A stretch of 64,000 nt of DNA from Bacteroidota bacterium. Lineage in GTDB: Bacteria > Bacteroidota > Bacteroidia > Chitinophagales > Chitinophagaceae. Below the pieces are notes generated by a model. The model made no database searches. It had not been told where the DNA came from and was given only the letters and a program-made list of their open reading frames with translations. Both the position numbers and the translations under genes were made by a program. Below, piece after piece: positions 7,435 through 60,494 of the stretch. The DNA lies in NCBI GenBank assembly GCA_947487525.1, contig CANKWR010000004.1, positions 1 through 64,000 of the forward strand, written 5' to 3'. Within the stretch, counting starts at the first letter, position 1; the number at the start of each line of letters is the position of its first letter.

Positions 7435-7511
7435 ATTTAAAAATACTGATTATCAATATTTTACAATTCAATTTTTTGTTGATTTTTTCTAGAATTTAAA
7501 CTTAATATTAA

Positions 7512-7540
7512 GTTCACATTCAGGTAACAATTTGGTAACA
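7512..7540 (+). promoter_or_regulatory. Pho-box-like array of 7-bp direct repeats with 11-bp period
   Basis: GTTCACA-TTCA-GGTAACA-ATTT-GGTAACA upstream of the TonB receptor, followed by an imperfect Bacteroidota -7 element (AATATTTG 7550-7557). Confidence 0.55.
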
Positions 7541-7578
7541 TTAGAGTCTAATATTTGCGGTATAAATAACTATATATC

Positions 7579-58816: not shown

Positions 58817-59797
58817 ATGCGGCTTCGTTTAAAGTATAATCATCTGCAGTTTATCAGAATCATTTATTGGCTTTTTTTAGTCTATATGATTGCTGCATTT
58901 ATTTGGTGGTATGTTTCATTGGTGAAACAGAACGACCAAATTGCCAATATTCAGTATAGCAGTATACAAACTAAAGATCCTGCCATTTTAAACAAAAACA
59001 AAGCAATCCTAGATTTTCAAATTAGAAAAACCAAACAATATATTGGTGAGGGAGTGACATTTTTGTGTTTGTTTTTATTAGGGGCAATTTATGTTTACAG
59101 ATCATTGATTAAACAAATCAGGTATTCTAATCAACAACAAAATTTTATGATGGCGGTTACCCATGAATTAAAAACACCCATTGCAATTACGCAACTTAAT
59201 ATAGAAACTATTTTAAAAAGGAATTTGGATGAAGCACAACAAAAAAAAATGCTTGAAAATTCACTATCAGAAACCCAAAGGCTAGATCATTTGTGCAATA
59301 ATATTTTACTTGCTTCGCAATTAGACATGGGCCAGTACCAAAAAAATGAGCAAGCTTTTGATTTTTCTTTTATCGTTCACAATACCCTTGAAAACTTTAA
59401 GACAAGATTTTCACAACGAAAATTTACAGACCATATACAAGAAAATATATTTATTAAAGGAGAGTCCGTTTTAATTCAATTACTCTTGAATAATTTGATA
59501 GACAATGCCATTAAATATGCCACTGCAGACACAAATATTACCGTTAGCTTAGCGGAAGTGCAAGGCAAAATTGTACTTTCGGTTGCTGACGAAGGAGTGG
59601 GTGTGGAGGAAGTAGATCGAGAAAAAATATTTGAGAAATTTTATCGCTCGGGTGCTGAAAATACAAGATTTGCAAAGGGTACGGGACTAGGCTTGTATTT
59701 ATGCAAGCGTATTGCTGAATTTCATAAGGCCAATTTAATAGTATTACCAAATACACCCAAAGGAAGTAACTTCATTTTTACTTATTATCAAAACTAA
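58817..59797 (+). CDS. Sensor histidine kinase
   Basis: Two TM; FMMAVTHELKTPIAITQLNIE; NLIDNAIKYA; GTGLGLYLCKRIAE. Confidence 0.95.
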   Translation: MRLRLKYNHLQFIRIIYWLFLVYMIAAFIWWYVSLVKQNDQIANIQYSSIQTKDPAILNKNKAILDFQIRKTKQYIGEGVTFLCLFLLGAIYVYRSLIKQIRYSNQQQNFMMAVTHELKTPIAITQLNIETILKRNLDEAQQKKMLENSLSETQRLDHLCNNILLASQLDMGQYQKNEQAFDFSFIVHNTLENFKTRFSQRKFTDHIQENIFIKGESVLIQLLLNNLIDNAIKYATADTNITVSLAEVQGKIVLSVADEGVGVEEVDREKIFEKFYRSGAENTRFAKGTGLGLYLCKRIAEFHKANLIVLPNTPKGSNFIFTYYQN

Positions 59798-59798
59798 G

Positions 59799-60494
59799 AT
59801 GTCAAAATATTTAATTTTATTAGTTGAAGACGAAGTTAACCTGCATGATACTTTAAAATTAAATCTTCAGTTAGAAGGTTATGAAGTAAGTTCTGCCTTT
59901 GATGGTCCTGAAGCAATTCGACAAGTTGAGCAAGCCCATTTTGATTTAATTATTTTGGATATCATGTTGCCTGGTATTGATGGGTTTGCCATTACTGAGA
60001 TACTGCGATTAAATAACAATTCAACACCCATTCTTATATTAAGTGCAAAAAACACGAGCGCGAATAAAATACAAGGGCTAAAGACGGGAGCGGATGACTA
60101 TATGACTAAGCCATTTAATTTAGAAGAACTTTTATTGAGAGTAGCTAAATTAATCCAAAAACATACGGCTATTTCGCAGTTCCCCAATACAGAACAATAT
60201 CACTTTTCAGGGAATGAGTTTAATTTTACCTCATTAGAAGTAATTACAAAATCAGGCGAAAAAATAGTACTTACTAAAAAAGAAGCGATGCTATTAAAGC
60301 TGTTAATTGACCATAAAAATACCGTGGTTTCCAGGGAGCATATTCTTCAAACCGTGTGGGGGTATAATGTTTTCCCCAATACCCGCACCATTGACAATTT
60401 TATCCTCAATTTTAGGAAATATTTCGAAACAGACCCCCGTAACCCTGCCCATTTTATATCAATTCGGGGGATTGGTTATAAATTCCAAGATTAA
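59799..60494 (+). CDS. OmpR-family response regulator
   Basis: LLVEDEVNLHDTL, LIILDIMLPGIDGF, winged-helix VVSREHILQTVWGYN. Confidence 0.95.
   Translation: MSKYLILLVEDEVNLHDTLKLNLQLEGYEVSSAFDGPEAIRQVEQAHFDLIILDIMLPGIDGFAITEILRLNNNSTPILILSAKNTSANKIQGLKTGADDYMTKPFNLEELLLRVAKLIQKHTAISQFPNTEQYHFSGNEFNFTSLEVITKSGEKIVLTKKEAMLLKLLIDHKNTVVSREHILQTVWGYNVFPNTRTIDNFILNFRKYFETDPRNPAHFISIRGIGYKFQD

Follow-up and report, generated by a model that had tools for sequence, protein, structure and literature searches.

A putative Pho-box array phased to a Bacteroidota −7 promoter element upstream of a TonB receptor and beta-helix lipoprotein pair

Four direct repeats and a −7 element precede a receptor/lipoprotein pair

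The window (the whole stretch of DNA analysed here, 64,000 nucleotides) contains two arrays of 11-bp direct repeats, each upstream of a pair of genes. The features are as follows.

7501–7544, + strand: putative Pho-box array, four 11-bp direct repeats CTTAATATTAA GTTCACATTCA GGTAACAATTT GGTAACATTAG (sequence, conservation, pattern and matrix scores)
7550–7557, + strand: putative −7 promoter element AATATTTG, TAnnTTTG class (sequence; consensus from PMC5682007)
7579–10338, + strand: TonB-dependent receptor with CarbopepD_reg_2, Plug and OMP_b-brl_3 domains (domain matches; GTG start conserved among close orthologs)
10378–11886, + strand: beta-helix lipoprotein, partner of the receptor (structure model)
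12507–13391, − strand: Ppx/GppA phosphatase gene, a neighbour only, for which control by the array is not claimed (domain match)
13396–15459, − strand: polyphosphate kinase gene, a neighbour only, with no array upstream (domain match; matrix scan)
15523–15566, + strand: second putative Pho-box array of four 11-bp units, followed after 9 bp by TTTA at 15576–15579 (pattern and matrix)
15598–16440, + strand: calcineurin-like phosphoesterase (PF00149/PF12850), PlcP-like candidate (domains, context)
16447–17472, + strand: glycosyltransferase (PF13528; MJ1255/VC2487-like) (domains)

The sequence from 7501 to 7557 reads CTTAATATTAA GTTCACATTCA GGTAACAATTT GGTAACATTAG AGTCTAATA TTTG, with exactly 9 bp between the last unit and the TTTG of the −7 element. 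The octamer AATATTTG at 7550–7557 agrees with TAnnTTTG, the Bacteroidetes −7 consensus (PMC5682007), at 7/8 positions, bearing out the original prediction of an imperfect −7 element downstream of the repeats. That prediction had also described three repeat units, GTTCACA (7512–7518), GGTAACA (7523–7529) and GGTAACA (7534–7540), all of which are present with an exact 11-bp period; the number of units needed correction, as the upstream unit CTTAATA (7501–7507) had been overlooked and the array has four. This fourth unit is kept in nearly all close orthologs. A Pho box consists of at least two 11-bp direct repeats, each with seven conserved and four variable bases, and four such units are found here.

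The lipoprotein had no Pfam hit. A structure model built with 14 homologues (pLDDT 83, pTM 0.86) was beta-rich, with beta-helix proteins as the best fold matches. Because the fold comparison returned general beta-helix matches only, at low TM-scores, we infer no enzymatic activity for this protein.

Period and score of the array

The 95 repeat units at the promoters of orthologous receptors, among them the promoter in the window, were combined into a matrix, with the repeat-unit consensus G[GT]T[AC]A[CT]ATTNN. The four-unit matrix score of 7501–7544 was 46.6, as compared with a maximum of 5.0 among 60 Markov-shuffled 64-kb windows. When four units with up to two mismatches were searched at periods from 7 to 16 in the window, the loci of 37 relatives and 80 named loci, period 11 gave 3, 44 and 56 matches, respectively, and any other period 0–2; in the window alone, periods 7–10 and 12–16 gave none.

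The search for a regulon in the genome used patterns, with the reversed pattern as a control. In the window's own genome (2.0 Mb, 88% complete), a search for four units that allowed up to one mismatch gave two matches, and the reversed pattern gave none; both matches, 7501–7544 and 15523–15566, fall inside the window. A third candidate, with two mismatches (G000:C7:11065), lies before a choice-of-anchor I protein (PF22494), and the PF22494 homologue in genome G029 is likewise preceded by an array. Weak sites in the own genome are not claimed, because two-unit patterns were not enriched over the control there, nor did two units plus TTTR exceed it. One two-unit site followed by TTTG at 9 bp is conserved between the own genome (G000:C12:1934–1967, − strand) and another (G047:C1:200579–200612, + strand), where it precedes a conserved ORF of ~105 amino acids that has no Pfam hit and lies beside a glycogen branching enzyme-like gene; this site is possibly a weak member of the regulon.

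Conservation and phasing within the genus

The array is present before the receptor in close genus orthologs with upstream sequence, and contains up to six units there (six in several genomes, e.g. G016, G036 and G007). Across 61 genomes of the genus, the pattern with at most one mismatch matched 96 times as opposed to 7 for the reversed pattern, with overlapping registers of long arrays counted separately in both numbers. Within a subset of the matches, nearly all lie 0–81 bp upstream of an open reading frame, and the genes behind them include Porin_O_P porins, TonB receptors, PlcP-like and PhyH genes, and the beta-helix lipoprotein itself. As is required of a Pho box, the array is thus shared among phosphate-response genes in the own genome and its relatives. 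The original prediction held that such repeats should be enriched near phosphate genes, and this idea, followed as far as possible by pattern and matrix searches with relatives included, survived.

A Pho box also lies in the promoter at a fixed distance from the core element and replaces the upstream core element. In 37 of 59 distinct arrays, the last unit is followed after exactly 9 bp by TTT[G/A/C], and in 7 more after 20 bp, 20 being 9 plus one further degenerate unit. Such a fixed spacing between array and −7 element would be expected if an activator bound where the upstream core element otherwise stands. In three loci (L208, L213 and L215, in G007, G081 and G046), the gene directly downstream of an array encodes a PhyH-family dioxygenase, and no clear −7 element is seen at the 9-bp distance.

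A second array precedes a PlcP-like candidate

The phosphoesterase and glycosyltransferase genes behind the array at 15523–15566 are separated by a 6-bp gap and are likely co-transcribed. With the matrix trained on receptor promoters only, all 29 of 29 PlcP-like upstream regions scored above every shuffle. Domain content and context suggest that the phosphoesterase is orthologous to PlcP, and LpxH models also match it, weakly. Phosphoesterase and glycosyltransferase genes are similarly paired in the plcP clusters that serve to remodel lipids under phosphorus stress; putative Pho boxes have been reported in these clusters, and plcP occurs in flavobacteria (PMC4796936). The likeness of the window's gene to PlcP is one of domain and context, not of PlcP sequence.

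The array beyond the genus

More weakly than in the genus, the array is found across Chitinophagales, Sphingobacteriales and Flavobacteriales. We sampled 80 named loci from Chitinophaga, Pedobacter, Sphingobacteriaceae, Flavobacteriales and others; by matrix score, 69 receptor upstream regions exceeded at least 198 of 200 shuffles, and 11 of the 80 loci had no significant array against the same number of shuffles. Flavobacterial loci often had weaker matches. Within these loci, 44/79 receptor upstream regions scored above 10, compared with 13/331 of the remaining genes (odds ratio 31, p 7e-26); PlcP-like or porin-like genes account for several of the 13.

In G078, an array with TTTG at 9 bp stands before pstS-pstC-pstA-pstB-phoU, with a score (13.5) barely above the shuffle maximum (11.2). 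In G068, an array lies upstream of a receptor-phoB-phoR operon, resembling the PhoBR operon of F. johnsoniae, with the lipoprotein gene divergent. In G071, a strong array (L242, 7748–7780, + strand), followed after 9 bp by TTTA, is flanked by pstS and a rhomboid-like gene; because it points away from pstS, we rejected it as a pst operator.

A PhoB ortholog is the candidate regulator

The own genome encodes three OmpR-type regulators. The best match of the one on contig C1 (G000:C1) is the PhoB model TIGR02154, at 206 bits, under the curated cut-off of 296, and the kinase beside it matches PnpS/WalK/PhoR models. Orthologs of this regulator adjoin phoU in G050 and G071 and lie within the receptor operon of G068; judged by its linkage to phoU/pst elsewhere, the C1 regulator is the predicted PhoB ortholog. 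The PhoB and PhoR that a Pho box calls for would thus be this regulator/kinase pair, with the PhoB model below cut-off and synteny with phoU/pst and pitA in relatives. Upstream of phoB itself, a two-unit half-array is conserved in four genomes, which might conceivably allow autoregulation.

The reading of the repeats as a Pho box, already offered in the original prediction, gains support from the PhoB/PhoR pair in the genome and from the like arrays that precede pst, PlcP-like, Porin_O_P and receptor-phoB-phoR genes in relatives. We consider it highly probable (roughly 0.9) that 7501–7544 is a PhoB-type operator that switches on the receptor and lipoprotein in phosphate starvation. What the sequences show is a conserved array at a fixed spacing to the −7 element, the genes behind it, and a PhoB that is present and linked; from this we infer how binding, phosphorylation, the response to phosphate and the substrate would fit together. 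On phosphate starvation, the PhoR-like kinase would phosphorylate the adjoining PhoB ortholog, and dimers of the latter would then occupy the four 11-bp half-sites in head-to-tail order. With PhoB bound in place of the −33 element, RNA polymerase would be recruited to the −7 element that lies just downstream. The TonB receptor and surface lipoprotein so induced may take part in capturing phosphorus compounds at the outer membrane.

Canonical PhoBR signalling involves PstSCAB and PhoU. PhoU was found in 0/49 genus genomes searched, and PstA above cut-off also in 0/49, the own genome being 88% and many relatives 95–100% complete; both are present in some other families of the order. Pst-PhoU, the usual sensor-transporter for phosphate, has apparently been lost from the genus. 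The sites could then be PhoB operators, but with the PhoB of this genus answering a different signal, such as envelope stress. We regard this as unlikely: the target genes are still of the phosphate type, and Bacillus subtilis retains phosphate control without phoU (PMC4415409). PitA is present in 10/10 genus genomes tested, and its DUF47 partner in the own genome. In G016 and G009 (L392 and L391), a DUF47 gene (PhoU_div) and then pitA lie downstream of the phoR ortholog, and this linkage in two genus members suggests that an alternative phosphate input to PhoR has been kept.

OmpR-type regulators commonly bind tandem repeats about 10–11 bp apart, and with three such regulators in the genome, the array could be bound by one of the other two to control envelope proteins, not a phosphate response. 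These are a regulator at 58817–60494 and an RprY-like one (G000:C11). We find this quite improbable, as the C1 regulator or its kinase is the only one with orthologs in phosphate loci (beside phoU, with DUF47-pitA, and in the G068 receptor operon), and the arrays precede pstS and PlcP-like genes. The regulator at 58817–60494 (+ strand) forms a histidine kinase/response regulator pair that is closest to YycF models and conserved in several genus members, with no linkage to phosphate loci seen. A chance or AT-rich low-complexity origin (curved DNA or an UP element), for which the AT-rich region and the short half-sites might speak, is rejected by the shuffle, reversed-pattern, period and coding-region controls and by the fixed spacing to the −7 element, and is exceedingly improbable.

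Comparison with known systems

Like the Pho boxes bound by PhoB/PhoP in E. coli, B. subtilis and Streptomyces, the PhoB-type operator proposed here consists of tandem 11-nt direct repeats in a promoter, with seven conserved and four less conserved bases, and the Streptomyces motif GTTCACC resembles the second unit of the window, GTTCACA (PMC4415409). It differs from them in its consensus, G[GT]T[AC]A[CT]ATTNN, in usually having four to six units in this genus, and in its phasing to a Bacteroidota TAnnTTTG −7 element 9 bp downstream, not to a sigma-70 −10. A Bacteroidota Pho-box consensus was not found in the searchable literature, most subscription papers being outside the search. What looks new is the consensus itself, the way it is coupled to the Bacteroidota −7 element, how widely it occurs and that it persists in the absence of Pst-PhoU; the working principle looks like that of the known Pho box. 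A wider proposal, which we put forward only tentatively, is that this consensus, 9 bp from TTTG, is a phylum-wide Bacteroidota Pho box, and that the genus has a reduced PhoB regulon without Pst/PhoU in which PitA/DUF47 sensing would feed into PhoR.

In F. johnsoniae, Fjoh_0545 and Fjoh_0546 are up 8.0 and 9.9 log2 on phosphate depletion; they encode a TonB receptor (Plug, CarbopepD_reg_2 and OMP_b-brl_3 domains) and, behind it, a beta-helix (IPR011050) lipoprotein (PMC8115612). The likeness to the pair in the window is one of shared architecture, not a comparison of F. johnsoniae sequences; that pair adjoins phoBR, whereas for the pair in the window phoBR is on another contig. Flavobacterium F-group lipoproteins have been reported as homologous to ElpS of Caulobacter crescentus (PMC8115612), a surface lipoprotein induced by phosphate starvation that co-occurs with a TonB receptor gene, CC0171 (PMC2996285). 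Here too a surface lipoprotein is paired with a TonB receptor gene, a likeness by description, not by sequence; Caulobacter belongs to another phylum, the release of ElpS is aided by a type II secretion system, and CC0171 was reported to be constitutive.

For Bacteroidota, in which phosphate-starvation proteomes exist, the array and its phasing supply an operator model of phosphate control that can be put to use. It could serve to predict Pho regulons in lineages not yet cultured and to assign receptor/beta-helix lipoprotein pairs that are still uncharacterised, by their sequence, to phosphate scavenging. A question that follows is by what route PhoR senses phosphate where both Pst and PhoU are missing.

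Neighbouring genes in the window

The original prediction had cited ppk-ppx, following the receptor pair, in support of a phosphate function. This argument did not hold: the two genes are on the opposite strand, and a matrix scan upstream of ppk and ppx showed no array above background. As they are convergent with the receptor pair and without an array, they were left out of the evidence. The array at 15523–15566 faces the phosphoesterase and glycosyltransferase genes, not ppk-ppx. Two half-site-like repeats, CTTAACAATTT and ATTAATATTAA, lie at 11945–11985, upstream of an acetyltransferase gene at 12000. Adjoining the phosphate genes at 17821–19468 (− strand) are a gene with a low-molecular-weight phosphatase fold (arsenate reductase-like), a methyltransferase, which is probably arsenite methyltransferase-like, and an ArsR-type regulator; arsenate is a phosphate analogue.
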